Shown here: positions 3,753-64,000 of the stretch, in pieces | How the letters are laid out: every line of letters begins with the position of its first letter | Numbering within the stretch: position 1 is the first letter of the stretch | Assembly: GCF_041053055.1 (NCBI RefSeq) | Contig: NZ_CP163443.1 | Location: 4,216,001 to 4,280,000, forward strand | Length of the DNA stretch: 64,000 bases | DNA from: Streptomyces sp. R41 | GTDB taxonomy: Bacteria; Actinomycetota; Actinomycetes; Streptomycetales; Streptomycetaceae | Reading direction: 5' to 3' | Notes under the pieces: generated by a model | What the model saw: only the letters and a program-made list of their open reading frames with translations | What the model was told of the DNA's origin: nothing | The model's database searches: none | Translations under genes and position numbers: made by a program

Positions 3753-4047
3753 CGGGCCACTCCCTCCACGGTTCCACCATCAGTGCCCTGATGATGCGGA
3801 GGGCGGGGCGGCGGGCGGTGGGCCTATCGGCCAGAGATACGGGGGGCGCTTTGGCGGGTTGGCCAAAGTCAAGGGGCAACCGGAAACACGGCTCTACATA
3901 GCTGTAGGCAATCGTGCCGCCAGAGCGGCACCCGTCCCACAGAAAGCGGCACCCCGTAACCGCGGGCTGCGCCACCCACCCCGAGCCCAGCCCCCACACC
4001 GGGTGCCCATTGAACCGGCGCCGGCGCAAGGCCGAACCGGCGCGGCG
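3753..4047. other. Intergenic region upstream of permease operon
   Basis: A gene-free stretch between the permease start and the end of the IclR gene. It contains a short dyad at 3894-3907 (CTACATAGCTGTAG) that could be part of an operator, but no clear promoter hexamers are convincing. The dyad is short enough to be chance. Confidence 0.3.
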
Positions 4048-44912: not shown

Positions 44913-45671
44913 AGCGCCCCCAACTCCCCACCGGGCTCACCGGTTCACATCCGCAACCGGCCCAGCCTTTCACGCGCCCGATCCGCCAAGAACGGCAAGG
45001 CAACCTGGTTTACCGGCCCTTGACCGCGCTTTGACGGAAACCGGCGAGACCAAGCCAATTCCGCGCAGGGAACGAGCCGTTGGATGCGCATGGGTGAGAC
45101 CTCAACCATCCCCTTTCTTCACTGGAAACACACAGGTCCCAGGCGGATCCACACGACCCTCGGGCCGCTCCGAACGGCCCCGGGTCACCGCCCTCGCGAT
45201 CCGGCCACGCCCCGCACCACTCTTGCTCCGCGCTCCGCCCCCATGCCTATGGTGATCGCCGCGCAACGGTGGCCCTGACCAGGCCTCCCGGACGCGCCGA
45301 CCGACACCGGGGGAACCATGGGGGGAACCATGTTCACGGGGGATCGCGCCTCACGCGCCGCATCATTCGCACGCGCCTCACGGACGGAACAACTCGTACG
45401 CGCCGCACAAGTCGCACGCGCCTCATCGGCCGTGCATGACGTGCGTGTCTCAGCCGTACGTGACGTCCACGCCTCTGCCGTGCGTGACGTGCGTGACGTG
45501 CACGACGCGTATGCCTCGCGCGCCTGATCGGTCTCACCACTTCCGTCACACCACGCCCCGGCGCCAGACGCCTCTATCGGCGGAGCGGAACGCCCTCAAG
45601 TCCGGTGCTCCGCCGTGCCGTTGCCCTGCGCCGCCCGCCGTACGCGATCGCCGAAGGAGAACCCGCGCCCC
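44913..45671. other. Long intergenic region
   Basis: About 760 bases without a firm gene. It contains a possible small ORF, listed next, and repeated CGTGACGT/GTGCGTGACGTG words near 45440-45510. Confidence 0.4.
45318..45527 (+). CDS. Possible small protein (repetitive)
   Basis: A 69-residue ORF preceded by a 12-base tandem duplication of GGGGGAACCATG, giving two in-frame starts each with a good ribosome site. The protein is Ala/Arg/Val-rich with a repeated SAVRDVHA / VRDVHD unit. It resembles no known family and may be a chance frame within repeats. Confidence 0.25.
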   Translation: MGGTMFTGDRASRAASFARASRTEQLVRAAQVARASSAVHDVRVSAVRDVHASAVRDVRDVHDAYASRA

Positions 45672-49400: not shown

Positions 49401-51043
49401 GTAGTCCCTCCAGTACCGGACGTTCCCGGCGCGGGTGATGCGTGTGCCGATGTAGGCGCGGGAGCCGGTGGCTTCGTGTCCGGGATGCGTTGCGGGCCAG
49501 TTGGCTTCGGTCTGGTTACCCGCCTCGTCGTATGCGTACGTCTCCGGTCCAGGCGTGAGCGTGCACGGCAGTAACGCGGCCTGCCCCGTCCAGATCGAAC
49601 CGACGAGTGCCGTTCAGCAGGTCGTCGAGGGCCTGGACGTTGCCGTCGGCCCGGTAGGAGTAGGAGCGCTTCTGGAGGACGCGGGAACCACCAGCGTTTA
49701 CCGACTGCTCTGTCAGGCGACCGAGTTCGTCGAAGGACTGGGTCTGAGCGAGGTTTTCGCCCACCCGACAAGCCACCTCCCGGCCTGCCTGGTCGTGATC
49801 GAAGTCGAGGGTGCGGCCTGGCACGGTGAGCTGCGTGCTCCGACCTGCCCCGTCGTAAGACCAGGTGCTGGTTGCGCCCGTCGGAGTGACACGGGAGGTC
49901 CGGCGACCGAGCCTGTCGTAGGTGACGCTCAGCGTGCGGCCGTTGACTGTCTCGGACTGGAGACGGCCGAGGGGGTCGCGGACGAGTATGAGGGTCGCGT
50001 CTGGGCCGGTCGCATGGGCGAGTTGGTCCGTGAGGTCGTAGGCGAAGGTGGTGACCTGACCGTCGGCGTCCTTGCGAAGGACCCGACCAAGCGCGTTCCG
50101 TTCGTAACGGACAGTCTGGCCCAGGGCGTTGGTGTGAGAGGTGAGGCGGCCTGCCGCATCGTGCGAGTAGGTCGGTACGCGGTCGTCGAAATCCTTCTCG
50201 GCCACCAGACGGCCAGCGGGGTCGTGGCTGTAGGTCCACGTCAGCCCCTGGGGGTTGGTCACCTGGGTGACGCGCAGTTCGCTGTCGTACGCGAAGGTGT
50301 AGCGAACGCCGTCCGGTCCGGTGCGGGCGGCAAGCACGTCGAAGGGGGCGTACTCGAAGAGGGAGACGGCGCCCAGCGTGTCAGTGTGACTGGTGCAGTT
50401 GCCCTCGCCGTCGTACGTCCACGACTCGCTGCTGCCGTCAGCGTTTGTCCGGTGTGTGATCCTTCCTTCAACGGTCCACCGAGAGTGTGTGACGTTGCCG
50501 AGCGGATCCGTTATGGCGATCGGCCGTCCGAAGGCGTCGCGTTCGTAGAGGGTGGTTGACCCGAGGGCATCGATTGCCTCAACCGGGAGACCTGCACCAT
50601 CGTTGTTCAACCGGGTGACATTGCCGAGGGCGTCTGTGACCGATGTCAGATGTCCCTTGGAGTCGTAGGTGAAGCGGCTTGTGGTCCCGGCAGGGTCGAT
50701 AACCGCAGTGCGATTACCACGCTCATCGAAGTCCTGGTGCCAGACGGTACCGTCGGGGCTGGTCACCGCTGTGGTCAGGCCGAGGGCGTTGTACATGAAG
50801 ACGGTCTCGCGGTTGCCCGGCCGGATCACGGATACCAGCCGGCCGCGCTCGTCGTAGCTGTAGCGAGTGGTGTGGCCGAGTGGATCGGTGACGGCGGTCA
50901 GCCGGTGACTGGTGTCCCACTCCTGGCGGACGCTGTGGCCGAGCGGGTCGGTCTGGCGGACGAGTCGATACGCGTCGTTGTGCTCGTAGTGAGTTCGCTG
51001 TCCCGCCGCGTTGGTGACCGTGGTGGTGTGCGTGCCCGTCGGC
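49396..51043 (-). pseudogene. Rhs/YD-repeat core fragment
   Basis: A 515-codon open frame (49516-51063) is made of about 22 YD repeats, such as YSYDERGRLVSV, FTYDSKGHLTSVTDALGN and YDRLGRRTSRVTPTGA. At about 49540 one frame ends and a second continues ETYAYDEAGNQTEANWP and RAYIGTRITRAGNVRYW, so a frameshift is present. The usual RHS N-terminal region and the C-terminal toxin tip (after the PxxxxDPxGL core end) are both missing. It is a decayed piece of a polymorphic toxin, read leftward. Confidence 0.85.
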
Positions 51044-51320
51044 GCGGACGACTTCCCGACCACGGGCCAGTCGTTCGACTACGTCGAGGGCCCCGTCCCG
51101 CAGCTCGACACGGTCCAGTTGGACTCACACCACGGCGCCTGTGAATTCCTTGACGCGGAGGCACAACGGCTCGAACTGCGGGTACATCGCCAGCGCCTCT
51201 GACGGAACCATCCGCCTCCGCGAAAGCGACGAGCCTGACGCCATCGTCGCTACGACCCGCGCCGGCCTCCATGAGCTGATACGAAGCCTCAAGACTCACC
51301 CGTTCATGCCAGGCGCCTGA
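51030..51320 (+). pseudogene. Fused remnant of DUF5753 regulator and DUF397 protein
   Basis: The first part reads GADDFPTTGQSFDYVEGPVP and LDTVQLDSHHGACEFLDAEA, the middle of a DUF5753 (Scr1-type) helix-turn-helix regulator. It then jumps to YIASASDGTIRLRESDEPDA and LHELIRSLKTHP, the end of a DUF397 partner. The middle of the two-gene unit has been deleted. A fuller copy of the same pair lies at 57805-58359. It abuts the Rhs fragment head-on. Confidence 0.75.
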
Positions 51321-51573: not shown

Positions 51574-51960
51574 TTACGCCTGGAGGTAGAGTCGCTCGGC
51601 GTCCAGGATCAGCGCGGCCAGCGGGCTGCCGTAGGGCCAGGAGTCGGCGATGACGCGACCGGCGCCACGCACCCGCCGAGGCCTGGGTGGCAGCGGGGAG
51701 GACGAAAGCTGCAGCATCATCTGGGTCAACTGATCACGGATTGCGGTCAGTTGACCAGCACTGCTCACGCGCCCATGGCCCGCGGCGTGTCGCTCCAACT
51801 CCTCGTCGATTCCCGACAGGGCCTGCTCGGATGCGGCGAGGGCCCTTTGTACGGCTGATTCGGACACTATGGCTCCGGCAAGTCCCTGTCGGGGTTCAAT
51901 ACGTATGTCTGCTCGCTTCGGGCTTTCCTCCCCGCCGGTGGAGCCCTTCTCCGCAATCAA
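51574..51960 (-). CDS. Small helical protein at the end of cassette A
   Basis: 128 residues from a TTG at 51960 that overlaps the stop of the preceding gene (TTGA); a later start at GTG (VSESAVQRAL) is possible. The central part is helical (ALAASEQALSGIDEELERH, LTAIRDQLTQMMLQL). The C-terminus reads RVIADSWPYGSPLAALILDA. No family is recognised. Cassette B has no counterpart in the window. Confidence 0.55.
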   Translation of the reverse strand: MIAEKGSTGGEESPKRADIRIEPRQGLAGAIVSESAVQRALAASEQALSGIDEELERHAAGHGRVSSAGQLTAIRDQLTQMMLQLSSSPLPPRPRRVRGAGRVIADSWPYGSPLAALILDAERLYLQA

Positions 51961-52646
51961 CCCGCCACGCTCGTTTCCGGTTCCAGCGGGTTGTCGAAGC
52001 TGACGAGTTCCGCAATGTGCCGGAGGATCGCACGGTACTGCTGGCGGCACGCCCCAGCTGTCGTACTCAGGGTGAGAACGACGAGGCGCTTGCAGTCCGG
52101 GTGCGGCAGATGGGCGTGGATCTGGAGAAGCGGCGTCTGAGGGAGGCCTCTGCCCGCCTGGGGAATGAGTACGGTCTCGCTGAGGGTGGCCGGGCCGCAG
52201 GGGAGTTCGAGGTACTCGATTCCAGTGTGGCCTTCGGCTGAAGTCACAGCGCGGGCGGCGGTGACTGAACGTGGGGCCAACTCTGTGCCGCGCCAGGAAA
52301 GGGTGAAGAGGGAGAGCAGGGGCTGACCGTTGCTGCCGCCCGTTTCGTCGATGTCGTCGCGATGCAGGCCGATCGAACAGTGGACCGTGCCGACCTCGCA
52401 CAGAGCGCCCAGCAATAGCTTCCCCTGTGCCAATTGGGCGATGACCTGCTGGCGCGCCTTCTCGTCGGGCGCCGCGTCAAGAAATGGCGCGAGCACGGCC
52501 CGAAGATTGTCGGCGGCCGGAGAGCCGGGCGGGGTGAGCAGGGCGTCGAGGGGGATGGGGGTGAAGCCTTCCGGTTCTGCGAACCAGATGTCGGCGTCTG
52601 GGTCCGTGGCCGAGTCGGCGACAACGATGTGGGGGGCCGTGGTCAT
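51957..52646 (-). CDS. 'DIWFA' cytoplasmic protein, cassette A
   Basis: 229 residues, no signal or TM. Opens with DPDADIWFAEPEGFTPIPLD; mid-region VHCSIGLHRDDID and LLSLFTLSWRGTELAPRSV; end CRQQYRAILRHIAELVSFDN. The cassette B gene at 59477-60145 matches all these blocks. Such genes accompany type-VII-like cargo genes in Streptomyces, and they have been left as hypothetical proteins. A chaperone or immunity role is possible but unproven. Confidence 0.75.
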   Translation of the reverse strand: MTTAPHIVVADSATDPDADIWFAEPEGFTPIPLDALLTPPGSPAADNLRAVLAPFLDAAPDEKARQQVIAQLAQGKLLLGALCEVGTVHCSIGLHRDDIDETGGSNGQPLLSLFTLSWRGTELAPRSVTAARAVTSAEGHTGIEYLELPCGPATLSETVLIPQAGRGLPQTPLLQIHAHLPHPDCKRLVVLTLSTTAGACRQQYRAILRHIAELVSFDNPLEPETSVAG

Positions 52647-52666
52647 GGGGTCCTGTCCGGTGCGAG

Positions 52667-53353
52667 TCAGTACGAGGGCGGTTGCGAGGGCGCCGCGTCG
52701 GGAACGTGGGCTCCTGCGCGGCGGGCGCGCTCAAGGGCGGCGGGGCTCGCGTTCCAGCCGGTCGGTTCGATACCGCGGCGGCCCGTGGCCGTGCGCTGGT
52801 AGAGGAGGTGCAGCCGCCTGGGGGCGCTGCCGCGGCGGCCGGTGGCGGCGACGACGGCGATGAAGCGAGGGTCGCCGGCGAACCAGAGAGGCTCGATCTG
52901 GGCTTTCAGCTCCGGTTTCGTGCGGGTAGTGCCGAAGCGTCGCATCCACCAAAAGGTGCGCATGTTCGCGAGGAAAAGCAGGGGGATCTGTTCCTCGGGC
53001 TTCTCCGGGTTGGGGAACTCGAACCACATCTCATCCTGCTCGACCTGGGGGTGCTTGTTCCGGCCGCGGGGGACGCCGGTGAGGAGCTGCCAGGGGTACT
53101 GCCAGAGGACACGTTGGATGTAGATGGAGGAACGGAAGTGGGGGAGCTGGATTACGGCGCGGAAGGTGGCGTACACGAGGAGGGGGAGGAAGACCCAGCC
53201 GATCCAGCGGGGTGTTGCCACCATGAGAAAGAGGCTTCCGAGCCAGACGGCGACCCAGCCGACCAGTCGCAACACGATCATGATCATGTGCTGGATCCAG
53301 GCTCGCCTGGTCGGAGGATGTTCCCAAGCAGTGCGGTAATTGGTCGGATTCAT
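52667..53353 (-). CDS. Two-TM 'WFAGDPRF' membrane protein, cassette A
   Basis: 228 residues from the ATG at 53353. Two adjacent TM segments (MIMIVLRLVGWVAVWLGSLF and IGWVFLPLLVYATFRAVI) follow a short cytoplasmic N-terminus. The remainder is probably cytoplasmic, with EYPWQ-like QYPWQLLTG, WFEFPNPEKPEEQ and the strongly conserved PLWFAGDPRFIAVVA. The paralogue at 58807-59475 shares these. In cassette A it precedes the DIWFA gene; in B it follows it. Confidence 0.75.
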   Translation of the reverse strand: MNPTNYRTAWEHPPTRRAWIQHMIMIVLRLVGWVAVWLGSLFLMVATPRWIGWVFLPLLVYATFRAVIQLPHFRSSIYIQRVLWQYPWQLLTGVPRGRNKHPQVEQDEMWFEFPNPEKPEEQIPLLFLANMRTFWWMRRFGTTRTKPELKAQIEPLWFAGDPRFIAVVAATGRRGSAPRRLHLLYQRTATGRRGIEPTGWNASPAALERARRAGAHVPDAAPSQPPSY

Positions 53354-53375
53354 GTGTGAGCTCTCCGTTCGGGGC

Positions 53376-54716
53376 TCAGAAGACGTGCCGGGCAACATTG
53401 ACGAGCCCTCCGACGTCCAGGCCAAGCCGTACTCCGTCGATACTCGCCATGGAGCCGTCCTTGATCCCGTCGTCGTCGGTGTCCACCGCGGTCATGACCA
53501 GGCCGAAGCCCGCAGTGGCAACACCGACTGAGGCTGATGTGACCTCGGCCGCTCTGGTGATCTGTGCTGCTCGGGCACCTCGAACCGTAAAGCCGAGTAG
53601 AGCGTTGTCCAGGTCGGAGATGGCCTTCGCATTTTCCATGGTGCTGCTTCCGAATCGGGCCACTCGCGGTACGAACGTGAGTGCCTCCCCTGTCTCCCCA
53701 GTTGCCCGCACGGCAGCCGCAACACCCTTGCCCGCAGCACCGACCCCGGGCAGCATGCCGAGGGCGTCGCCGCCGACCGTAACGAGGTTGCTCCAGAAGT
53801 CCGTGTCGAACTCTCCCTTGGTGAATCCGTCCCACAGCGAGGCACGCAGCGTTGGGTCACCAAAAACCCTCATCCCCAACGCCGCTGCGCTAAAAGCTGC
53901 AGCGGCGAGCAGCAGAACGGCAGCCGCCGTCCCGCCCGACACCACGAACAGTGCCACCAGCCCGATAACGGCCGCCGCGGTGCTGAGGATGTCCGGAAGG
54001 TTCTCGTCGAGCCAGTCGAGTGCCGAGTCGAACCAGCCCGGCTCGTGCGGTGCCAGCTTCTTCGTGGCGTCGCGGATTTTGCGCGCCCGGTGCTGGGCTT
54101 GGAGCTCGTGCTCGTCGGCGAGTTTTCGGGCCTTGCCTCGGATCTTTTCCAGTGCTTCCTCGGCGTCGTCCACCGCCGTGTTCGCCTTGGTCAGGGCCTT
54201 CTGCGCGTCGTCGTGCCGGGCACCCTTCTTGTCCAGGTCAGGGCTGTTGCCCGCCTTGTTGGCGTGGCCCTTCGCTCGGTTCACGGCGGCCTGGGCGTCC
54301 TTCGCGTCCTCTTCGAGTCGCTTCGCTCGACGCTGGAAGTCGTCGAGCTCGCCTTCCCAGCGGTCGAGTTGCTTTGCCGCCTTGCGGATGGAGTGCGCAG
54401 CGTTCTTCAGGTTCAAGGGCAGTGTGCCGCCGTCGAGTTGCTCGCGGAAGGCGACGGCGGCGTCGCCCTTCCAGTAGCTGCCGTCCATGAGCTTGGTGAC
54501 GAGCTCATGCGTCTCTTCAAGGACCTTCGCGCACCCCGTGAGCTTCTTGCGCAGGCCGCTCACCGTCTCGGTACTGCCCGGAACCGGGTTGAAGCCCAGG
54601 TGTGGGTAGTCCGGGTTCGGAATGCGCGGGGCGGACTTGAGGCCTTGTGGTTTGTCGCGGTCGGCACGGGACTGCGGGTCGAGGGCCGCTCCTGAATCGC
54701 CGGGTGGGTACGTCAC
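53376..54716 (-). CDS. T7SS-signal-like secreted/membrane protein, cassette A
   Basis: 446 residues. Residues 30-130 match the putative T7SS signal region: HLGFNPVPGSTETVSGLRKK, GSYWKGDAAVAFREQLDGG and LDRWEGELDDFQRRAKRLEE. A long charged coiled coil (about 120-215) follows, then two hydrophobic stretches (VIGLVALFVVSGGTAAAVLL and AAAAFSAAALGM) and a weakly structured C-terminus. No known toxin motif is seen. The GTG overlaps the stop of the small ESX-like gene (GTGA). Substrate of a type VII-like export is likely; the secretion genes are not in the window. Confidence 0.78.
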   Translation of the reverse strand: MTYPPGDSGAALDPQSRADRDKPQGLKSAPRIPNPDYPHLGFNPVPGSTETVSGLRKKLTGCAKVLEETHELVTKLMDGSYWKGDAAVAFREQLDGGTLPLNLKNAAHSIRKAAKQLDRWEGELDDFQRRAKRLEEDAKDAQAAVNRAKGHANKAGNSPDLDKKGARHDDAQKALTKANTAVDDAEEALEKIRGKARKLADEHELQAQHRARKIRDATKKLAPHEPGWFDSALDWLDENLPDILSTAAAVIGLVALFVVSGGTAAAVLLLAAAAFSAAALGMRVFGDPTLRASLWDGFTKGEFDTDFWSNLVTVGGDALGMLPGVGAAGKGVAAAVRATGETGEALTFVPRVARFGSSTMENAKAISDLDNALLGFTVRGARAAQITRAAEVTSASVGVATAGFGLVMTAVDTDDDGIKDGSMASIDGVRLGLDVGGLVNVARHVF

Positions 54717-55036
54717 TTCGCGGCGCCGCCCTTGCCCTTGGCAACCCTGGACCTACTCAGGGCCTCCTCCAGGGCCTTGTCCACCTCGCGGTAGCTGTCC
54801 CTGCTCTTGCCGATGATCTTGGCGAGATCTTCGGTCTGCTCACCGATCTGGTCGGTCCCGTACTTCCAGTCGTCCTGGAAGTCCTCACAGGCGGTGTCGA
54901 GATCATCGGTACCCAGGCCCGTGACAGTCGCGTCTTCCAGCGCCTTGCGCAGGCCCCTCAGCGAGTCAGTCGATTTCCTGAGCATCTTCATGAAGTGCGT
55001 GAGCTCGTCACCGTCCACGACCAGCCGTTCCGCCAT
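54713..55036 (-). CDS. Small ESX/WXG100-like protein, cassette A
   Basis: 107 residues from the ATG at 55036. Two helical halves with a central turn: DELTHFMKMLRKSTDSLRGL, then FQDDWKYGTDQIGEQTEDLA and SYREVDKALEEALSR. The size, helical hairpin and central Trp recall WXG100 partners, although the canonical WxG is DDWKYG here. It overlaps and probably pairs with the T7SS-signal-like protein. Very similar to 61500-61817. Confidence 0.78.
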   Translation of the reverse strand: MAERLVVDGDELTHFMKMLRKSTDSLRGLRKALEDATVTGLGTDDLDTACEDFQDDWKYGTDQIGEQTEDLAKIIGKSRDSYREVDKALEEALSRSRVAKGKGGAAK

Positions 55037-55164
55037 GCGCCCCGTCCCCTCTCCCGGTGCACCCGCACCATGGGGAGGAACGACGTCGGCGATCTTTCGT
55101 GGCGCTCGGTGGAGTGCTCCCCTCTTTAGGGGGAGCACTTACCGGACACGGATCGCGACCGCGG

Positions 55165-56214
55165 TCAGCGGTTGACGGACTGGATCTCCTGCACGATGAC
55201 GTCCTGGGTGGCCCCGAACGTGCCCTCCGGCAGACGTTGCGCCCTGGCCACCCCGGTGCCCGTCCAGTGGATCTTCCACGTGATGGTGGCCTTGAGCTTG
55301 TACGCGCCGTCGCCCGAGGAGCGCAGGTAGCGCACGCCGCAGGGCGGGGTCTCGTCCGACTTGCCCTTGGCGTAGGCCTCGCCGATGTGGCCGCTGTCGA
55401 ACTCGCAGACGCCGGAGGCGGGGTACGTGGTGGCGTCGTCCGTGCCGGGCTCGATCTTCAGCGCGACCGGTTCTGCCGTGGTCGTCGCATAGACGCCGAG
55501 CAGCGGGACACGTGCTGTGACGGACACCGGCTTGAACTTCGCTGTGTCCAGCCACGCCCACGTCGGGAGGTTCACCTTCGTGGTGCCGGCCGGGGCCAGT
55601 TCCACCTTCGTCGACGGGACGCGTATCTCGGCGTACGCGAGCTGCGCCAGCATCTCGGGCGTAATCGCCTCGGGAATGTCCGCGGGCGGGGCATCGCCCT
55701 TGTCCACCCAGAAGATGGGCTTGTCGCAGTCGAGAGCACCCGGGTCACCCTCGCGCCCCGGGGTGACGTACGAGTCCCACCAATAGCCCTTGTCGGCCTT
55801 GTCCTTGTTGAAGTCCTTGTACGGGCTGCCGTTCACGTATTTGTTGCGCTGCTCCAAGTCCCACTGGGACCCGGTCGACTCGGCATTCCAGATCGGCTCC
55901 AAGTACTTCTGCAGCTCGTCCGGGGAGTACTTGGGGGCGTAGTAGCACGCGGGCGGAGTCCACGTGGACGACGTGGAAGTCACCGGACCCGTGGACTCAC
56001 CCGAACCATTCTTCGAACGGTCGAAGACAACGGCTCCAGCCTGTGCGGAAACACCGCCGGCACCGTCGGATTTACCGGATGCGCTGGTATCCGAGCCGTT
56101 GGTGCTGCCGCCATGGCCATATCCCGCGTTCGCTTGAGTCGCGCACAGCAGCAGGGCCGTGGAAGCAATGAAGGCGACTGCTCCGGCGTTCCTGTACTTC
56201 ATCCAGACTGGCAT
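55165..56214 (-). CDS. Secreted four-cysteine protein, cassette A
   Basis: 349 residues from the ATG at 56214, with GGGGGAG upstream; its first bases overlap the lipoprotein gene by 16. Signal peptide AGAVAFIASTALLLCATQANA, then a low-complexity Gly/Ser stretch. The conserved region starts WTPPACYYAPKYSPDELQKY and holds PTWAWLDTAKFKPVSVTARV and YPASGVCEFDSGHIGEAY. Cysteines (ACYY, DCDK, VCEF, PCGV) suggest two disulfides. Its C-terminal half is nearly identical to that of 61938-62981, while the N-terminal third is not. Confidence 0.75.
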   Translation of the reverse strand: MPVWMKYRNAGAVAFIASTALLLCATQANAGYGHGGSTNGSDTSASGKSDGAGGVSAQAGAVVFDRSKNGSGESTGPVTSTSSTWTPPACYYAPKYSPDELQKYLEPIWNAESTGSQWDLEQRNKYVNGSPYKDFNKDKADKGYWWDSYVTPGREGDPGALDCDKPIFWVDKGDAPPADIPEAITPEMLAQLAYAEIRVPSTKVELAPAGTTKVNLPTWAWLDTAKFKPVSVTARVPLLGVYATTTAEPVALKIEPGTDDATTYPASGVCEFDSGHIGEAYAKGKSDETPPCGVRYLRSSGDGAYKLKATITWKIHWTGTGVARAQRLPEGTFGATQDVIVQEIQSVNR

Positions 56215-56858
56215 GCGCTGCTCCCCCGCTGCGACGTCAGTTTCTCCGTGATCCAGATGCCTTGCTTGTTGACCCGGAGTCGGCTGTTGTAGAGGACGTA
56301 GTTGTCCTTCGACTTCGGAGTCACCTCGGTCTTGCCGGTCTTCAGGTTCTTGTTGTAGGCCTTGTTCTGGTCTTCGCAGTAGACAAAGCCGGCCGTTCCA
56401 TCAGTGTTGATCTTCACGTTGGCGTTGTAGTAACGCTTTGCTCCGGTGATGCGGTCCTTGTAGTCCACGAACTCCTGGATGAACTTCTGGCTCCCGGCCG
56501 CCGCAGTGCCTTCGGAGTAGAAGCGGTACGCCTTGTGCAGCGGGTCCTGCTCAGCGATGGCCATGTCCACGGCCTTGATGAACTGCTCGCTGTCGCTCAG
56601 GACCGCGTCCTTGTCCTTGTCGCCCGTCTTCGGCCACTCGAAGGTGTACGTGAGATCCGACGGCAGCTCGATCTTCGGGCGGTCGGCGGCCGCGGAAGCC
56701 GAGGCGCTCGGCGACGCCGAAGCCCCATCCCCCGTATCCGCCCCCGCGATCTTGTCGTTGCCCTTCGATCCGCCACCGCCCCCACCGCACGCGGTCAAAA
56801 GGAGTGCAGCCATCGCACCGACGGCGGCTGTGGTGAGCAGGCGGGGACGGCGGTTCAC
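56199..56858 (-). CDS. Lipoprotein, cassette A
   Basis: 219 residues from the GTG at 56858, which has AGGAG seven bases upstream. The lipobox is LLTAC (Cys about residue 24) after MAALLLTACG, followed by a Gly run and a Ser/Ala-rich linker. The mature domain has YSEGTAAAGSQKFIQEFVDY, AKRYYNANVKIN and FVYCEDQNKAYNKN, then VLYNSRLRVNKQGIWITEKL. It is the first gene of the cassette. The signal region is almost identical to that of 62969-63625, while the mature domain is clearly diverged. Confidence 0.78.
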   Translation of the reverse strand: MNRRPRLLTTAAVGAMAALLLTACGGGGGGSKGNDKIAGADTGDGASASPSASASAAADRPKIELPSDLTYTFEWPKTGDKDKDAVLSDSEQFIKAVDMAIAEQDPLHKAYRFYSEGTAAAGSQKFIQEFVDYKDRITGAKRYYNANVKINTDGTAGFVYCEDQNKAYNKNLKTGKTEVTPKSKDNYVLYNSRLRVNKQGIWITEKLTSQRGSSACQSG

Positions 56859-57233
56859 GGCAGACTCCTGTGCGGCGTGGGGTTCGGAAGGGCCACGACA
56901 CGCTATCGGTGACGCGTGTGACGACACCAGAGCGAATTACGTCAACGACAATGACAAATCCGGCATAGGAGCACAGAAGGTGACCAAGCCTGACTCTGCA
57001 ACCTTCGATCGAGTGACCCAAGCGGTCGGAATCGTGACCGCGTTGGCCCCTGCAAAGCCGTTGCAGGGCCGTCAGCCCCGGCGAGCTCCCATCTTGGCTC
57101 CCGGCCGAGCAGCTCTCCCCCGCCCCCGCACCCCACTCGGCCAAAGCCGAGCCCACCGCTTCGCCGCCATGTCCTCAATCCACCCGAACGCGACGATCGT
57201 CAAGCCAATCAACGGCCACCAGCACGGACATTC
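56731..57233. repeat. Long near-identical direct repeat, copy 1
   Basis: This 503-base stretch, covering the lipoprotein signal region and its upstream DNA, recurs at 63498-64000 (offset 6767 bases) with only a couple of mismatches visible by eye. The identity starts inside the lipoprotein gene and runs to the window end, so the true length is unknown. Confidence 0.9.
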
Positions 57234-57545
57234 ACAGCATGTACGTCGTGTCGAGGGCGGCCACCACCCGGTCGCTCTGCATGCCGAGCGCCGACAGGTC
57301 GTCCGACTCCGCCTTGAACTCGCGCAACGGCTTCGCGGTGTGGTGCGACACCTTGCAAAACGCGGTGGGCCCTCTCCAGCGACTCCGCTTCCTTCCTCAG
57401 GTCCAACACGCCTGCCTGACCGCGTACTTCACTCTGCGCACATGTCAACCTGTCGACCGCGGTGGGGGTTTATAGGGTGGGCATGGCGGGCGCCAAGGGC
57501 AGCCAAAGATCGCCGCTCTGCACTCCCTTGCGGGCCGACATCCGG
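56859..57545. other. Intergenic region upstream of cassette A
   Basis: The first 375 bases are the duplicated upstream DNA. The rest shows no gene with convincing codon use; several overlapping frames exist, but none has recognisable blocks. The leftward cassette promoter should lie here. Confidence 0.4.
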
Positions 57546-57833
57546 TCAGGCAGCCCCAGCCGGCGCAGCCCCGGGCCCGCCGACCTCGAACCACAGCAAC
57601 TTTCCGGCTCCCTTCCCGAGCAGGTCGTCGCCGAGCGGCCAGCCACCCCACGAGTCTGCATATTCCTGTACGAGGAGCAGCCCCCGCCCGCCGCCGGCGT
57701 CCTCGCGAGCGGGCCGAACCCTGTCGCCGGGCGGTTTGTCGAAGGGCGCGGGGATGTGCGGGCTGCTGTCCCACACCCCCACCCGTAACCACCCGTCCCC
57801 CAATGCCGTCAGCCGCAGGGAGGCGCTCCGCAT
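57546..57833 (-). pseudogene. C-terminal fragment of an anti-sigma-type HATPase
   Basis: 95 codons resemble the second half of a RsbW/SpoIIAB-like ATPase: LRLTALGDGWLRVGVWDSSP, then AGGGRGLLLVQEYADSWGG with the Gly-rich G box and GKLLWFEVGG. The N-box half, with the Asn and the rest of the ATP pocket, is absent: the sequence abuts the DUF5753 fragment read in the other direction, at about 57805-57833. Confidence 0.7.
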
Positions 57834-58152
57834 GGACTTCGGCGGTCCATCCGTCGCCCGCGCTCAGCTCCAGCACCTCATCGAGATGTGCGAACTGGCC
57901 CATGTCACCGTCAGGGTGATTCCCTTCGGCGCCGACCACTTCCCCAGCACGGGTCAGTCCTTCGACTACGTCGAAGGGCCCGTCCCGCGGCTCGACACCG
58001 TCCAGCTGGACACACACCACGGCGGCTGCGGATTCCTCGACGCGGAGGCACAGTTGAGCAAGTACCGTTCCGTGCTGGATCACATGGAGCCGTGTGCACT
58101 CAGCCCCACCGAGTCACACGACTTCCTCCAACGCCTCATCCGGGACATCTGA
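57805..58152 (+). pseudogene. C-terminal fragment of a DUF5753 helix-turn-helix regulator
   Basis: About 115 codons: REALRMDFGGPSVARAQLQH, then CELAHVTVRVIPFGADHFPS and GQSFDYVEGPVPRLDTVQLD, ending FLQRLIRDI. This is the end of a DUF5753 protein, but the helix-turn-helix N-terminus is missing. The break with the HATPase fragment is in the overlap 57805-57833. It is followed 12 bases on by the DUF397 gene, as is usual for this pair. Confidence 0.75.
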
Positions 58153-58164
58153 AAGAGACCAACG

Positions 58165-58359
58165 GTGCAGACCTTCCACTGGCAGAAGTCCACCTACAGC
58201 GGGGACAGCTCGAACTGCGTCTACGTAGCCGCCACGGCCACCGGAACCGTCCACCTCGGCGAGAGCGACGAGCCGCACATCATCCTCACTACGACCCGCG
58301 CCCGCCTACACGAGCTGATACGAACCCTGAAGGCGCCCCCTTCCACGCACAGCGCCTGA
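58165..58359 (+). CDS. DUF397 protein
   Basis: 64 residues from the GTG at 58165. The full DUF397 pattern is present: WQKSTYSGDSSNCVYVAATA, then GTVHLGESDEPHIILTTTRA and LHELIRTLK. DUF397 proteins are small partners of DUF5753-type regulators (WhiJ-like), in developmental and antibiotic control. The partner regulator here is truncated. Confidence 0.85.
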   Translation: MQTFHWQKSTYSGDSSNCVYVAATATGTVHLGESDEPHIILTTTRARLHELIRTLKAPPSTHSA

Positions 58360-58361
58360 CT

Positions 58362-58446
58362 ATTGGCAACTTTGGGCCAGCCGGTCATCCCCCAGCATCA
58401 GGTACGACGGGTGTCGCCACGCTCCCGATGGCCCAAAGTTGCCAAT
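58362..58446. repeat. Inverted repeat after DUF397 (copy 2)
   Basis: Perfect 18-base arms, 58362-58379 and 58429-58446 (ATTGGCAACTTTGGGCCA and its complement), around 49 bases. A degenerate copy follows the other DUF397 remnant at 51324-51407. Confidence 0.7.
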
Positions 58447-58589
58447 TGCCGACGGGCGGCCTCAGGAAGCGAGTCCGCGACCGGTTCGTCGCGGCACGGG
58501 TGGACCCGGCATCTGCCGTCGTCCAGCCGCTCGACGCGGCGGACGGACACCCCGTCCAGGCCGAGCAGCACCGTCGTATCGTTGTCCAA
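58398..58589 (-). pseudogene. N-terminal fragment of an ISL3-like transposase
   Basis: Starts MDNDTTVLLGLDGVSVRRVE, matching the beginning of ISL3-family transposases, then loses similarity at about residue 35 and stops at 58398. Just upstream (58590-58650) an imperfect dyad with GCGTGATC and GATCACGC may be an insertion-sequence end. A truncated mobile element. Confidence 0.5.
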
Positions 58590-58806
58590 GCCCGTGGCCC
58601 CCGCGTGATCGTCTAAAGATCAGACATGATCACGCAAGGCCACGGGCACTTCGCTTCCGGGGCCAGGCTCTCCTCGGCTGAACACGGGCCGTGACGCCCC
58701 ATCGCGGGAGCCATCCGCACCGCTCAACCGCGAAGACTCCTCAGTCTCCACGGCTTCAGGGCGTTCTCGAAGCGGAACATCTCGGCGAGTCCCTGGCAAC
58801 CTGGCG
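58590..58806. other. Intergenic, insertion-sequence scar
   Basis: Contains the dyad GCCCGTGGCC...GCGTGATC / GATCACGC...GGCCACGGGC (about 58590-58649), which looks like two inward copies of one transposase-gene upstream region. No gene is supported. Confidence 0.4.
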
Positions 58807-59475
58807 CTACGCCTCGGTGTCCGGCGCCACCACGTGCAGTTCCGGTACACGGATGCCTGCGCGACGGGCGCGTTCGACGGCGTCCGGGCCTGCCCCGTGG
58901 GCGTGGCCAGGGATACCCCTGTTGTAGCTCGGGCGCTGGCAGATCACGTAGAGGCGGCGGGGGCCCGGGATGGCGATGACGGCAGCGAAGCGGGGGTCGC
59001 CGGCGAACCAGATCTCTTGAACCTGAGCCGCCTTCTCAGGCTTGACGCCAGGGCCAAGACGCCGAGCCCAGAAGGTTGCTCGGAGATGGGAGCGCATGAC
59101 CATGGCGACCCTCCCGGCAGACTGTTCGGGGTCGGGGAACTTCAGCCACACGTCGCCGGGCCCGGCGTCCGGCACCTTGCCGATGCCGCTCTCCGGCCTC
59201 TCGTAGACCTGCCAGGGGTACTCCCGCAACAGACGCAGCGCGCGGAGAGCCCAGGTGATGTAGGCAGGTTGAAGAAAGGTCCGGTAGAACGAGTAGAGCA
59301 TCGGTACGAAGAAGAACCACAGCGTCCAGGTCGGCGAGATCACGTACCACGCCAGCAGGCCAACCCACGCCACCGGCCAGAGGATCTGTCCGAGGATCGC
59401 GAACGTGACGAGCTGCGTCCAGGCACGGCGCGTGGCCGGGTCGGCCCAGGCTGTGGAATCTTGCGTGGGAGCCAT
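58807..59475 (-). CDS. Two-TM 'WFAGDPRF' membrane protein, cassette B
   Basis: 222 residues from the ATG at 59475; an ATG at 59487 would overlap the upstream stop. Two TM segments near residues 25-65 (LGQILWPVAWVGLLAWYVIS and WFFFVPMLYSFYRTFL), then the shared blocks LLREYPWQVYERPE, VWLKFPDPEQSAG and IWFAGDPRFAAVIA, ending ALERARRAG-like AVERARRAGIRVPEL. The counterpart in cassette A is 52667-53353. It is the last gene of cassette B. Confidence 0.75.
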   Translation of the reverse strand: MAPTQDSTAWADPATRRAWTQLVTFAILGQILWPVAWVGLLAWYVISPTWTLWFFFVPMLYSFYRTFLQPAYITWALRALRLLREYPWQVYERPESGIGKVPDAGPGDVWLKFPDPEQSAGRVAMVMRSHLRATFWARRLGPGVKPEKAAQVQEIWFAGDPRFAAVIAIPGPRRLYVICQRPSYNRGIPGHAHGAGPDAVERARRAGIRVPELHVVAPDTEA

Positions 59476-59476
59476 G

Positions 59477-60145
59477 TCATTTCTCATCAGGCACATCCAG
59501 GAACGGGTTGTCGAAGCTGACCGACTCGGCGATGTCCCGGAGCAGAGCACGGTAGTGTCGCGCACGCCGGACCGCCGTGGTGGCCAATGTGAGGATCGCG
59601 ATCCGTGCACCGTCGGGGCAGGGAACGTACGCGGTGACCTGAAGCAGATCCCGCTGGCCGAGTCCCGCCTCCGGCGGCGTGGTCAGACGCTCCTGCACAA
59701 GTGAGGCCGGGCCGCAGGGAAGGTCCAGAGTCTCGATGTGCTCAGCGTTCGTCTCGCCGCCGGCCGCTGCACGAGCCGCTATGACACTCCGCGGAGCCCA
59801 GCTGGTCGCCCGCCACGCGAGTGTGAACAGCGAGAGCAGCAGACTGCCGTCACCTTCGTCGTCCATGTGCAGGCCGAGGGAGCAGTGAATAACTCCGGAC
59901 TCCAGGAACGCCTGGGCCATCCGCTGGACCGGAGCGAAATCGGTCAGGAGCCGATCCCGAGACTCGGGATCGGGGAGAGCCTCCCACAGCGGACGCACCA
60001 CATCCCCCGGATTCGCCTCCTCCGGGCCGCTCGCCGCCTCCGCCAGTTCCACGAGCGGAAATGCGACGAAGCCCGCGGGCAGTGCGAACCAGATATCGGC
60101 ATCCCGGCTCCGCGCTGACTCGTCGATCAGATAGGGAACGCTCAC
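59477..60145 (-). CDS. 'DIWFA' cytoplasmic protein, cassette B
   Basis: 222 residues. Opens SRDADIWFALPAGFVAFPLV; mid-region VIHCSLGLHMDDEGDGS and LLSLFTLAWRATSWAPRSV; end ARHYRALLRDIAESVSFDNP. Its start overlaps the upstream T7SS-signal-like gene by four bases (60142-60145), so the two are coupled, unlike in cassette A, where the membrane protein intervenes. Confidence 0.77.
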   Translation of the reverse strand: MSVPYLIDESARSRDADIWFALPAGFVAFPLVELAEAASGPEEANPGDVVRPLWEALPDPESRDRLLTDFAPVQRMAQAFLESGVIHCSLGLHMDDEGDGSLLLSLFTLAWRATSWAPRSVIAARAAAGGETNAEHIETLDLPCGPASLVQERLTTPPEAGLGQRDLLQVTAYVPCPDGARIAILTLATTAVRRARHYRALLRDIAESVSFDNPFLDVPDEK

Positions 60146-61503
60146 GATGCCGCCCTCGCCCCGAACATGAGGAAGTGAATCGCTCCGACCGCCGCTGGGA
60201 GATCTACCCCAAGGGTTCTGGGGCCATCCAGACCACTGGTGATCGCCTTGGCCGCGTCGTTGTCCAGGCTCTCCGCAAGGGTGCCGGCCACGCCGTACAA
60301 CGCGGTCCCGGCGCCCAGGAGGGTCGCCGGAGCGTCGATCTTCTCCACGATCGGAGCCAGCCGACCACCGAACACCTTCGGATGAGCCAAGATGCTCACG
60401 GCGCCTCCGGCTGCGGTGGCCTCCGTCTTGATCGAGGTTCCAACTGCCGCGATCTTCTGCGGCAACGTCAGGACCTCACCACTCGCACGCATGAGCTGTG
60501 GCGCCTTGAAGGCTCCCTTGAGTGCCACCCCAAGCGCCGGCACCATACCCAGAAGGTCCCCCGCCACCCCGAGGGCGTTGCTCCAGAAGTCCAGGTCCAA
60601 CTCACCCTTGGAGAATCCGTCCGCCAGGGACGCCCGAACCTCGGGATCGCTGATCCGCAGACCGAAAGCGGTCGCGCTCAACAGCCCCGCTGCCAGGAAC
60701 AGCGCCCATGGTGCAATAGCCGTAAGCCCCAGCAGTGCGATCACACCCAACACCGCTGCGCACGCGCTGAGGATGTCGGGCAGGTTGTCGCCCAGCCAGT
60801 CGGTGAACTTGTCCCACGCGCCGGGTTCATGCGGCGCCAGCTTCTTCGTCGCGTCGCGGATCTTGGCCGCCCGGTACTGCGCCTTCTGCTCGTGCTCCTC
60901 GGCCAGCTTCTTCGCCTTGCCGATGATCTTGTCGAGTTCGGCCTGGGCGTCGTCCACGGCCGTGTTCGCGTGGGTCAACGCCTTCTGGGCGTCGTCCTGC
61001 CGGGCGCCCTTCTTGTCCCGGTCGGGGTCGTTCTCCGCCTTGCTCGCTGGGCCCTTCGCCGTGTCGAGCGCGGCCTGTGCGTCCTTCGCGTCGCCTTCGA
61101 GCTTCTTGGCACGGCGCTGGAAATCGTCGAGTTCCCCTTCCCAGCGGTCGAGCTGCCGGGCCGCCTTGCGGATGGAGTGCGCGGCGTTCTTCAGGTTCAA
61201 GGGGAGGGGGCCGCCGTCCAACTGCTCCCGGAAGGCAACTGCTGCATCACCCTTCCAGTAGCTGCCGTCCAGGAGCTTGGTGACGAGGTCGTAAGCCTCT
61301 TCCAGGGTCTTGGCGCAGTTCGCGAGCTTCTTGTGCAGGTCACGAACCGTATCGGTGCGTCCGGGCACAGGATTGAAGCCCAAGTGCGGATAGTCGGGAT
61401 TCGGGATGGACGGGGAGGACTTCAGCCCCTGGGGAAGATCACCGTTCCGGCGGGCCGCCGAATCGGGAAAAGGGGACGGTTCGACGCCTGGAGTGACAGT
61501 CAC
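60142..61503 (-). CDS. T7SS-signal-like secreted/membrane protein, cassette B
   Basis: 453 residues. Signal-like region YPHLGFNPVPGRTDTVRDLH and GSYWKGDAAVAFREQLDGGP; coiled coil to about residue 215; hydrophobic stretches ILSACAAVLGVIALLGLTAI and ALFLAAGLLSATAFGLRI. The first 240 residues are close to the cassette A protein; the last 150 are clearly different, as expected if a variable effector part is joined to a fixed export part. GTG start overlapping the upstream stop (GTGA). No catalytic motif is recognised. Confidence 0.78.
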   Translation of the reverse strand: MTVTPGVEPSPFPDSAARRNGDLPQGLKSSPSIPNPDYPHLGFNPVPGRTDTVRDLHKKLANCAKTLEEAYDLVTKLLDGSYWKGDAAVAFREQLDGGPLPLNLKNAAHSIRKAARQLDRWEGELDDFQRRAKKLEGDAKDAQAALDTAKGPASKAENDPDRDKKGARQDDAQKALTHANTAVDDAQAELDKIIGKAKKLAEEHEQKAQYRAAKIRDATKKLAPHEPGAWDKFTDWLGDNLPDILSACAAVLGVIALLGLTAIAPWALFLAAGLLSATAFGLRISDPEVRASLADGFSKGELDLDFWSNALGVAGDLLGMVPALGVALKGAFKAPQLMRASGEVLTLPQKIAAVGTSIKTEATAAGGAVSILAHPKVFGGRLAPIVEKIDAPATLLGAGTALYGVAGTLAESLDNDAAKAITSGLDGPRTLGVDLPAAVGAIHFLMFGARAAS

Positions 61504-61817
61504 TTCTTAGCTCCACCCTTACCGTCCTTGGCATTCCTCAGTGCTTCCTCCAGCGCCTTGTCCACCTCGTTGTAGCTGTCCTTGCTTTGCCCGATGATCT
61601 TCGCAAGCTCCTCGGTCTGCTCACCGATCTGCTCGGTGCCGTACTTCCAGTCCTCCTGGAAGTCCTCGCACGAGGCGTCCAGATCGTCCGTGCCGAGCCC
61701 GGTGACAGTCGCGTCGGCCAGCGCCTTGCGCAGCCCCTTCAGGGAGTCGCTCGACTTGTTGAGCAACTTCATGAAGTGTGCGAGCTCATCGCCGTCGACG
61801 ACCAGTCGATCCGCCAC
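61500..61817 (-). CDS. Small ESX/WXG100-like protein, cassette B
   Basis: 105 residues from the GTG at 61817. About four fifths identical by eye to the cassette A protein: DELAHFMKLLNKSSDSLKGL, FQEDWKYGTEQIGEQTEELA and SYNEVDKALEEALRNAKDGK. It overlaps the T7SS-signal-like gene by four bases. Confidence 0.78.
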   Translation of the reverse strand: MADRLVVDGDELAHFMKLLNKSSDSLKGLRKALADATVTGLGTDDLDASCEDFQEDWKYGTEQIGEQTEELAKIIGQSKDSYNEVDKALEEALRNAKDGKGGAKK

Positions 61818-61937
61818 ACCGGTGTCCTCTCCTGCCTCTGGCACGAGTAAGTGACTCTATCCATCCCGCATTTGCCGTCGCGACGGTGCCCGCCCCTTCT
61901 CGGGAGCGGGCACCTGACCGCAGAGCCCCGCAAGTGG

Positions 61938-62981
61938 TCAGCGGTTGACGGACTGGATCTCCTGGACGATGACGTTCTGGGTGGCCCCGAACGTCCCCTC
62001 CGGCAGACGTTGCGCCCCGGCCACCCCGGTGCCCGTCCAGTGGATCTTCCACGTGATGGTGGCCTTGAGCTTGTACGCGCCGTCGCCCGAGGAGCGCAGG
62101 TAGCGCACGCCGCAGGGAGGGGTCTCGTCCGACTTGCCCTTGGCGTAGGGCTCGCCGATGTGACCGCTGTCGAACTCGCAGACGCCGGAGGCGGGGTACG
62201 TCGTGGCGTCGTCCGTGCCGGGCTCGATCTTCAGCGCGACCGGCTCCGCGGTGGTTGTCGCCGAGACGTTGAGCAAAGGAACCGAGGCGGTCACCGACAC
62301 CGGCTTGAACTTTGCCGTGTCCAGCCACGCCCACGTCGGGAGGTTCACCTTCGTGGTGCCCGCCGGCGCGAGGTCCACCTTGGTCGACGGGACGCGTATC
62401 TCGGCGTACGCGAGCTGCGCCAGCATCTCGGGAGTGATCGCCTCGGGGATGTCCGCGGGCGGGGCATCGCCCTTGTCCACCCAGAAGATGTCCTTGTCGC
62501 AGTCGGCCGCGCCCGGGTCGCCCTCGCGGCCCTGGGTGACGTACGAGTCCCACCAATAGCCCTTGCCGGCCTTGGCCTTGTTGAAGTCCTTGTACGGGTT
62601 GCCGTTCACGTATTTGTCGCGCTGCTCCGCGTCCCACTGATACCCCGTCGACTCGACCCCCCAGATCGACTCCTTGTACTTCTGCAGCTGATCCGGGGTG
62701 TACTTGGGAGCGTAGTAACACGCCGGCGGAGTCCAGTTCGTGGTGGAGCTCACCGGGCCCACCGACTCGCCCGTACCATTCTTCGCGCGGTCGAAGACCA
62801 CGGCGCCAGCTGTGGCAGACAGCGTGCCGTCATCAGTGGCATTGCCGTGTGGCTGCGGTGTGGTGTTCTCATTACCTTCGCCGCCACGACCGCCGGCGTA
62901 CGCGGCGTTTGGGCTAAGCGCCGAGAGACAGACAAGCGCCACGAATGTCGCAGCACGGGTTGACCGCTTCACGGCTGGCAC
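61938..62981 (-). CDS. Secreted four-cysteine protein, cassette B
   Basis: 347 residues from the GTG at 62981, overlapping the lipoprotein gene by 13 bases. Signal peptide STRAATFVALVCLSALSPNAAYA. The conserved region begins NWTPPACYYAPKYTPDQLQK and includes PTWAWLDTAKFKPVSVTASV and ASGVCEFDSGHIGEPYAKGK. The last half differs from cassette A at only a few positions, while the signal peptide and linker are unrelated, which points to gene conversion in the 3' part. Confidence 0.75.
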   Translation of the reverse strand: MPAVKRSTRAATFVALVCLSALSPNAAYAGGRGGEGNENTTPQPHGNATDDGTLSATAGAVVFDRAKNGTGESVGPVSSTTNWTPPACYYAPKYTPDQLQKYKESIWGVESTGYQWDAEQRDKYVNGNPYKDFNKAKAGKGYWWDSYVTQGREGDPGAADCDKDIFWVDKGDAPPADIPEAITPEMLAQLAYAEIRVPSTKVDLAPAGTTKVNLPTWAWLDTAKFKPVSVTASVPLLNVSATTTAEPVALKIEPGTDDATTYPASGVCEFDSGHIGEPYAKGKSDETPPCGVRYLRSSGDGAYKLKATITWKIHWTGTGVAGAQRLPEGTFGATQNVIVQEIQSVNR

Positions 62982-63625
62982 TGGTCAGCACCTCGCTTCG
63001 AAATGACCTTCGTGGTCTGCCACACGCCGTCCGAGTTCTTGACGAGCTTCGTGTTGTACAGCACGTAACTGTCAGACGAGGTAGGCGTCTTCTCGGCCTT
63101 GCCTGTCTTCCGGTTCTTGAGGAAGGACTTACTTTCATCCGAGCAATAAATGACAGACGCACTACTATCGCTGCGAAATGTCACCTGGCGGTCGAAGTAC
63201 CGGGTTGTCCCCATCCACGAACGATCGTCGTCCAAGTATCCCTGAACGAACGTCCTCGCACTGTCCAAGGCGCCTTCTGCGCTGTAGAAGCCCAAAGCTT
63301 CGGTATTCACTTTCCCTTGGAAGATCGCGTCGTCCACAGAGTTAATGCGCTGAGCGTTGTCCGCGAGTACCGCATCCTTCTTGGCGTCTCCGGTCTTCTG
63401 CCCTTCGAACACGTTCCGCGCATCCGAGGGGAACGTGATCGTTGGCCGCCCCGCGCTGCTCGTCGCGCTCGCGCTAGGCGAAGCCGGCGACTCGCTCCCC
63501 GTATCCGCCCCCGCGATCTTGTCGTTGCCCTTCGATCCGCCACCGCCCCCACCGCACGCGGTCAAAAGGAGTGCAGCCATCGCACCGACGGCGGCTGTGG
63601 TGAGCAGGCGGGGACGGCGGTTCAC
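62969..63625 (-). CDS. Lipoprotein, cassette B
   Basis: 218 residues from the GTG at 63625, with the same ribosome site as cassette A. Lipobox LLTAC and the Gly run are identical; the mature domain has FYSAEGALDSARTFVQGYLD, TTRYFDRQVTFRSDSSASVI and VLYNTKLVKNSDGVWQTTKV, the same fold plan as in A but with low identity. It heads cassette B. Confidence 0.78.
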   Translation of the reverse strand: MNRRPRLLTTAAVGAMAALLLTACGGGGGGSKGNDKIAGADTGSESPASPSASATSSAGRPTITFPSDARNVFEGQKTGDAKKDAVLADNAQRINSVDDAIFQGKVNTEALGFYSAEGALDSARTFVQGYLDDDRSWMGTTRYFDRQVTFRSDSSASVIYCSDESKSFLKNRKTGKAEKTPTSSDSYVLYNTKLVKNSDGVWQTTKVISKRGADQCQP

Positions 63626-64000
63626 GGCAGACTCCTGTGCGGCGTGGGGTTCGGAAGGGCCACGACACGCTATCGGTGACGCGCGTGACGACACCAGAGC
63701 GAATTACGTCAACGACAATGACAAATCCGGCATAGGAGCACAGAAGGTGACCAAGCCTGACTCTGCAACCTTCGATCGAGTGACCCAAGCGGTCGGAATC
63801 GTGACCGCGTTGGCCCCTGCAAAGCCGTTGCAGGGCCGTCAGCCCCGGCGAGCTCCCATCTTGGCTCCCGGCCGAGCAGCTCTCCCCCGCCCCCGCACCC
63901 CACTCGGCCAAAGCCGAGCCCACCGCTTCGCCGCCATGTCCTCAATCCACCCGAACGCCACGATCGTCAAGCCAATCAACGGCCACCAGCACGGACATTC
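63498..64000. repeat. Long near-identical direct repeat, copy 2 (runs off the window)
   Basis: Matches 56731-57233 over its whole length; differences seen are at about 63684 (C for T) and 63959 (C for G), plus any I missed. The upstream part of cassette B, beyond 63626, holds no gene in the window. Confidence 0.9.

Follow-up and report, generated by a model that had tools for sequence, protein, structure and literature searches.

Probable type VII effector modules in the R41 chromosome

The window analysed here, a stretch of 64,000 nucleotides from the 10.46-Mb chromosome of Streptomyces sp. R41 (G000:C1:4216001-4280000), carries two cassettes, A and B, that encode the same six protein families in open reading frames (ORFs) lying without exception on the - strand. 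These families comprise a lipoprotein (lipo), a secreted protein with four cysteines (cys), a small ESX/EspC-like protein (esx), a type VII secretion system (T7SS) signal-like protein (sig), the DIWFA protein (diw) and the WFAGDPRF membrane protein (wfa). A previous sequence-only reading had described two leftward sets of these families, and all six were indeed recovered twice. It is fairly probable that each cassette is a type VII effector module, and not a secretion machine, in which esx would provide targeting, DIWFA would serve as chaperone, WFAGDPRF would confer immunity, lipo and cys would be envelope partners and export would proceed through an FHA-bearing EssC ATPase. Conservation, gene order, a motif, a predicted fold, genomic location, co-variation between partners and gene arrays were computed; from this sequence, predicted-structure and genome-context support we infer the interactions, secretion, toxicity and immunity that the reading involves.

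According to this proposal, the ESX/EspC-like protein would pair with the WXG-like hairpin of sig and present an export arm to EssC, as Lap1 does for LXG toxins. DIWFA, whose predicted Mog1/PsbP fold is that of Eag, would shield the hydrophobic segment of sig, otherwise insoluble in the cytosol, until export. The partner of the C-terminal half of sig would be WFAGDPRF, which most likely guards the membrane of the producer; sig would therefore be a membrane-acting antibacterial effector directed at the membrane of a neighbour. The lipoprotein and the four-Cys protein may act outside the membrane, as envelope partners common to cargo modules that are swapped by recombination.

Conservation of the cassette

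A scan with the DIWFA alignment yielded 53 loci, nearly all from Streptomyces, with one from Kitasatospora and one from Actinacidiphila. A contiguous core is present in 50 of them, ordered esx-sig-wfa-diw in 38 and esx-sig-diw-wfa in 12, with lipo and cys directly ahead of the core in 31 of the 53 loci and the lipo family on the + strand in 39. Across 41 genomes of the genus, a DIWFA gene adjoins all 12 of the strong sig genes (E of roughly 1e-90 or lower) and 13 of the 14 wfa genes that are strong (E below 1e-16). Twenty random 20-kb stretches contained no match to any of the six families. The co-inheritance proposed from the sequence alone is borne out by these counts, and families found mostly apart, the contrary pattern, were not seen; lipo and cys do occur without the core as well. 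The named relatives of the cassette proteins come almost throughout from Streptomyces, and in a sample of 296 genomes of the phylum DIWFA was found in six, five of the same genus, with one match weak. A lipobox is present in 71 of 73 lipo relatives, and of 60 full-length relatives of cys, 59 have four cysteines in the mature portion. No Pfam or NCBIfam family was matched above cut-off by lipo, cys, diw or wfa, in a search part of which did not cover every copy.

The ESX-like protein and sig as candidate type VII substrates

PF10824 (EspC) is matched by 13 of 18 esx members at E<=0.1 (best 4.5e-5) and WXG100 by 12, the window copies scoring below cut-off. An export-arm-like motif of the YxxxD/E type, [YF]xx[VIL][DE]xxL, is located near the C-terminus of all 57 esx members identified with the family hidden Markov model, against 1.5% of shuffled sequences. 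The earlier description of type-VII-like cargo with an ESX-like partner is supported. The sig proteins open with an N-terminal W-G-AA-F hairpin, followed by a coiled coil and by a hydrophobic segment that shows as one or two hydropathy peaks in all 17 members analysed; variation is greatest in the C-terminus (mean distance 0.59-0.63, versus 0.25-0.31 in the hairpin).

By homology, sig falls within the T7SS_signal family, since many of the listed homologs near 60% identity carry a precomputed PF21725 annotation, and its N-terminal half aligns with a T7SS_signal-DUF6531-RHS protein. Neither window copy matches PF21725 at E<=1, hence both remain below the curated Pfam cut-off, and their WXG100 scores are 12.6 and 14.3 bits versus a cut-off of 27.3. 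PF21725 (cut-off 27 bits) is passed by the sig of a third cassette upstream of the window (L009, 27.9 bits) and by that of L070 (38.0 bits); the copy at this genome's own EssC locus, with 25.3 bits, lies below. Passing relatives belong to an EssC locus and to an RHS toxin. The T7SS-signal-like nature attributed to sig thus holds for its relatives, although the window copies themselves are not recognised by the profile. Neither window sig copy matched a toxin family in the profile search or a PAAR family at E<=1, and profile searches of diw and sig against PDB sequences yielded weak or coiled-coil matches only.

The DIWFA protein and Eag chaperones

Structure prediction assigns DIWFA the Mog1/PsbP/DcrB fold, which is that of type VI Eag chaperones, and its gene adjoins sig, the putative effector with a transmembrane-like segment. 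A chaperone role is therefore probable for DIWFA as far as the model indicates. DcrB was matched by none of 22 DIWFA members at E<=1, and EspG is absent among the 50 listed structural matches of the DIWFA model, an absence that does not exclude a relation to EspG. The arrangement resembles the pairing of Eag with prePAAR-TMD effectors of the type VI secretion system (T6SS), where the gene for a Mog1/DcrB-type fold likewise neighbours that of an effector containing a hydrophobic segment (PMC7773334). It differs in that the cassette has neither a PAAR nor a DUF1795/DcrB match, stands in a type VII context and encodes a DIWFA with extra N-terminal helices. In T7SSa, the EspG chaperones of PE/PPE substrates are comparable as dedicated cytosolic chaperones for hairpin substrates (PMC11217815).

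A pairing similar to that of Eag and prePAAR-TMD proteins (PMC7773334) is also present at some RHS toxins: within 2.5 kb upstream of ten T7SS_signal-RHS genes, a Mog1-like gene was found in four cases and cys in two, and an eleventh gene (L023) has neither. One RHS gene (L066:8842-13326) encodes T7SS_signal, DUF6531 and RHS regions and a sub-threshold GIY-YIG end. The Mog1-like gene ahead of it (L066:8098-13326 for the pair; also L243, L245 and L247) recalls the eag-rhs pairs of type VI systems. A PsbP/MOG1 domain beside a toxin has been treated as diagnostic of type VI secretion (PMC12419801), and PsbP/MOG1 is known in T6SS operons (PMC3482391). Among the literature matches listed, none linked a Mog1/DUF1795 chaperone to a Streptomyces T7SS, most subscription papers and bioRxiv preprints being outside the scope.

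Partner co-variation and gene arrays

Pairwise distances over 43 loci reveal that the partners of sig follow different halves of it. Those of esx track the N-terminal half (r 0.86) over the C-terminal half (0.67), those of wfa track the C-terminal half (0.87) over the N-terminal half (0.55), and those of diw also follow the C-terminal half (0.82) more than the N-terminal one (0.70). For each of the three, the bootstrap interval of the N/C difference does not include zero, and this holds as well when only the 36 loci that share one gene order are taken. The signal of wfa is highest beyond the hydrophobic segment of sig (columns 301-390) and that of diw at columns 211-270 and 361-420. The histories of the two sig halves are partly separate (r 0.73). 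In the 31 loci with all six families, lipo and cys track each other (0.70) and are least alike wfa (0.22) and the C-terminal half of sig (0.35-0.37).

Two adjacent full copies of wfa are found in L015 and L018. At EssC loci its position is taken by a substitute, X, of which four full copies plus pieces stand behind a single esx-sig module in L069 (2114-7296); hhalign gave no relation between WFA and X296. No tandem cluster of DIWFA-type genes was seen among 79 and 87 matches in the scanned loci. T7SS toxins are known to be accompanied by rows of dissimilar immunity paralogs (PMC9484751), and the wfa and X arrays resemble such immunity-gene arrays, which on sequence grounds suggests an immunity role.

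Association with EssC and EccC secretion ATPases

The FHA-EssC of this genome (L065:7060-11841) is encoded at 6.09 Mb of the chromosome, 1.8 Mb from the cassettes, and carries an FHA-type domain, PF16697. Its best match, T7_EssCb_Firm, reaches 576 bits, below the model cut-off of 778, so that it is a relative of this type rather than a member. In its vicinity are a WXG100-like gene, an esx-sig-p1057-p1663 set (L065:12728-16612) and a lipo-cys-esx-sig-X-diw set (L066:695-5654). This type VII-like locus (L065:4198-19998 together with L066), which was not matched to a published T7SS subtype, also comprises a kinase-like gene and two signal-anchored membrane proteins of 421 and about 706 aa, relatives of both of which occur at the EssC locus of G023.

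Across 20 FHA-EssC stretches, 20 of 20 non-RHS sig genes are immediately preceded by esx and followed by a Mog1-like gene, four more sig genes at stretch edges being skipped. L065, L066, L069-L073 and L252-L254 had been taken because of a DIWFA match near EssC, and L250 and L251 because of cys; in the loci picked for EssC alone (two in G014 and one each in G022, G024, G031 and G086), the same flanking was found for 3/3 sig genes. A wider set (23/23), which also included two EccC loci and L009, is kept apart from this count. Three further counts are less affected by the choice of loci. Genomes with a strong cys, a class that omits G002 (E 2e-20), have one within 25 kb of FHA-EssC in 10 of 12 cases, the exceptions being G012 and G014. 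When an FHA-EssC is called close from 57% identity upwards, as in 22 of 101 genomes, cys is found in 10/11 genomes with a close EssC and 2/30 without, counts that are uncorrected for the tree, and both of the latter two carry a more distant FHA-EssC. Strong DIWFA genes occur in 13/22 genomes with a close EssC and 1/79 without.

With a 35-kb limit, FHA-EssC is no more than 17 kb away from 8 of 53 DIWFA-family genes (55 rows minus two fragment rows of genes already counted; binomial p 2.5e-6), and EccC no more than 29 kb away from at least 7 of the 53 (p 3e-4). A set of 40 canonical EccC loci, hand-picked from the listed matches and examined as 20-kb stretches in place of stretches of at most 4.7 kb, contained a cassette match at one locus, an esx gene alone. 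The expected co-occurrence with EccC-type ATPases is found for diverged relatives beside EssC and EccC, but not for the window copies, which are not encoded with an ATPase. The T7SS that serves the cassettes probably lies 1.8 Mb away, the cognate system probably being the FHA-EssC one at 6.09 Mb. Among the matches listed, this genome has one EccC match (G000:C1:9518580-9522470, 644 bits), and many other genomes of the genus score near 780.

Alternative explanations

Several observations weigh against an effector module exported by FHA-EssC. Among the six loci picked for EssC alone, only three have any cassette gene. When both are traced on an rpoB tree that covers 60 of the 101 genomes, 6 changes fall to DIWFA and 12 to EssC; among independent pairs, EssC changes in the same way in about 3.8 and in the opposite way in none (median p 0.125), and because six independent DIWFA changes are too few to reach 0.05, a dependence on EssC is not provable on the tree. 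Furthermore, window-like sets adjoin canonical EccC in two genomes, as esx-sig-diw-wfa directly after EccC on the same strand in G008 and as sig-diw-wfa in G022. Together with the DIWFA-family genes near EccC, these sets favour export of the window cassettes by a canonical ESX/EccC system, which nevertheless appears unlikely: the DIWFA genes near EccC belong to a more distant subgroup or are weak relatives, cassette matches are confined to one of the 40 EccC loci, and the window-type DIWFA goes with FHA-EssC. The proposal of a complete, self-sufficient secretion or contact-dependent system, which the sequence-only reading drew from the joint encoding of secreted, lipid-anchored and membrane parts, is very improbable, since the cassette has no ATPase and its relatives adjoin EssC or EccC ATPases; it reads instead as an effector module.

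Other alternatives concern the roles of the proteins. The cassette might be a non-toxic envelope module, in which sig would be secreted as a structural or translocation part that, along with lipo and cys, prolongs the T7SS through the wall, DIWFA and WFAGDPRF helping in assembly. The sig proteins have no recognisable toxin domain and align over their full length instead of ending in unrelated toxin domains, and cys is strongly tied to FHA-EssC, all of which suits such a role. We nonetheless give it a low probability, as one EssC locus (L252, L254) holds several different esx-sig modules next to each other, as cargo would be, the histories of the two sig halves are partly separate and the wfa/X arrays look like immunity arrays. 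Slightly less likely still is an exchange of roles, with WFAGDPRF as a membrane adaptor and DIWFA as an immunity protein that, through its Mog1 fold, would neutralise sig in the cytosol in the manner of Tsi3 acting on Tse3. Two observations run counter to the array pattern that sets wfa and X apart from DIWFA-type genes: an intact cassette in G009 is followed by a second wfa-diw pair, broken by in-frame stops (G009:C1:6302658-6303937), and dissimilar Mog1-like genes are neighbours at EssC loci. The exchange of roles is opposed by the lack of tandem clusters of DIWFA-type genes in the loci scanned, whereas wfa and X cluster, by the stronger co-variation of WFA with the sig C-terminus and by the presence of Mog1-like genes ahead of 4/10 RHS genes, another architecture.

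Relation to known systems and significance

One near parallel is that of the LXG effectors of T7SSb with Lap1 and Lap2, in which a small WXG100-like partner with an FxxxD-type motif is encoded with a helical-headed effector (PMC9600955); Lap1 needs this motif, near the end of its second helix, for LXG export (PMC9600955). The cassettes differ in having one small partner, not two, no LXG match among the matches listed, an added Mog1-fold protein and an actinobacterial host. The T7SS_signal-RHS polymorphic toxins of Streptomyces (PF21725, DUF6531, RHS) share a homologous N-terminal half with sig (L023, L066), but sig ends after the hydrophobic region, without RHS repeats or a tip toxin. The T7SSd of Olsenella and Bifidobacterium (PMC11217815) may be alike in part, as this genome too has an actinobacterial, FHA-bearing EssC with, as read from the sequence, WXG100-like and kinase-like genes nearby; the likeness covers these three elements of a set that in T7SSd also takes in TsdH and TsdI.

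It is conceivable, though more doubtful than the effector-module reading itself, that the T7SS of Streptomyces uses Eag-like, Mog1-fold chaperones for membrane-inserting effectors exported by the FHA-EssC system, with effector-chaperone-immunity modules swapped by recombination behind a shared lipo/four-Cys platform. Eag-like chaperone logic was found reported for type VI only, and Streptomyces is absent from the main text of the published list of T7SS subtypes, where an FHA-EssC system is not described for this genus (PMC11217815); T7SS-associated alarmone-synthetase effectors have been reported for Streptomyces and Amycolatopsis (PMC12691689). If the proposal is true, the regular occurrence of a Mog1 fold after type VII signal proteins, and before some type VII RHS toxins, would suggest that two unrelated machines deal alike with the export of proteins with hydrophobic segments. 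It would also provide a concrete and abundant set of candidate substrates for Streptomyces type VII systems, and testable roles for six unnamed families.

Layout and mosaic structure of the cassettes

The features of both cassettes are collected in Table 1. Their last two genes are swapped, the order being esx-sig-diw-wfa in A and esx-sig-wfa-diw in B, and protein identity between them is 59% for lipo, 81% for cys, 76% for esx, 58% for sig, 46% for diw and 38% for wfa. By their coordinates, lipo and cys overlap by 13 bp in A and 16 bp in B, esx and sig by 4 bp in both and sig and diw by 4 bp in A. Overlaps of 4-16 bp, as noted from the sequence, are thus present at several junctions, but the co-translation of the full set deduced from them is rejected, because cys-esx in A (a gap) and wfa-diw in B (a 20-bp gap) do not overlap.

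Table 1. Features of cassettes A and B, with positions in the window.
Feature	Position	Strand	Basis or remark
Cassette A leader (upstream DNA and lipo start; repeat D2)	63497-63999	-	99.6% identity over 503 nt to cassette B; match runs to end of compared stretch
Cassette A lipoprotein (lipo)	62969-63694	-	ORF; lipobox LLTACGG
Cassette A secreted four-Cys protein (cys)	61938-62981	-	ORF
Cassette A ESX/EspC-like helical protein (esx), probable targeting factor	61500-61844	-	PF10824 17.3 bits, cut-off 23.5
Cassette A sig, probable T7SS substrate (N-terminal WXG-like hairpin, then coiled coil and hydrophobic segment; C-terminus variable)	60142-61503	-	homology, hydropathy
Cassette A DIWFA protein (diw), probable chaperone, predicted Mog1/PsbP/DcrB fold	59477-60145	-	
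Cassette A WFAGDPRF membrane protein (wfa), probable immunity or membrane partner	~58807-59523	-	ORF opens at 59610; family alignment starts near 59523
Cassette B leader, matching 503 nt	56730-57232	-	99.6% identity to A leader
Cassette B lipo	56199-56927	-	ORF
Cassette B cys	55165-56214	-	ORF
Cassette B ESX/EspC-like protein	~54713-55030	-	ORF opens at 55138; PF10824 19.3 bits, below cut-off
Cassette B sig	53376-54716	-	ORF
Cassette B WFAGDPRF protein	52667-53425	-	ORF
Cassette B DIWFA protein	51957-52646	-	ORF

Past the nearly identical leader, A and B fall to 33-67% identity in the remaining lipo gene (60-nt windows) and return to 95-100% at the end of cys. A third, divergent cassette, C, lies directly upstream, just outside the window (L009:1057-5825 = G000:C1:4280056-4284824), and consists of the same lipo and cys genes followed by esx (3718-4041), sig (2288-3721) and two 200-residue proteins (1663-2265 and 1057-1659), all on the - strand. 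Compared with the window cassettes, its cys is 86% and its leader 78% alike, its cargo gave no blastn match, and the GC content of this cargo, 56-61%, is lower than the 61-67% of the A and B genes. Because the leader with the lipo start and the cys end are conserved while the cargo has diverged, cargo modules appear to have been exchanged by recombination between the conserved lipo and cys ends. The two 200-residue proteins of cassette C are possibly Mog1-like.

Downstream of cassette B, an RHS/YD-repeat ORF (49516-51063, -) matched no N-terminal T7SS signal or toxin family. A DUF5753 C-terminal part and a DUF397 gene lie between the cassettes (57832-58359, +), with a second, less intact copy at 51035-51320 (+), the two corresponding to repeats D6 and D7. 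Finally, an Rv2525c-like, glycoside-hydrolase-like protein with a peptidoglycan-binding domain is encoded at 45615-47903 (+).

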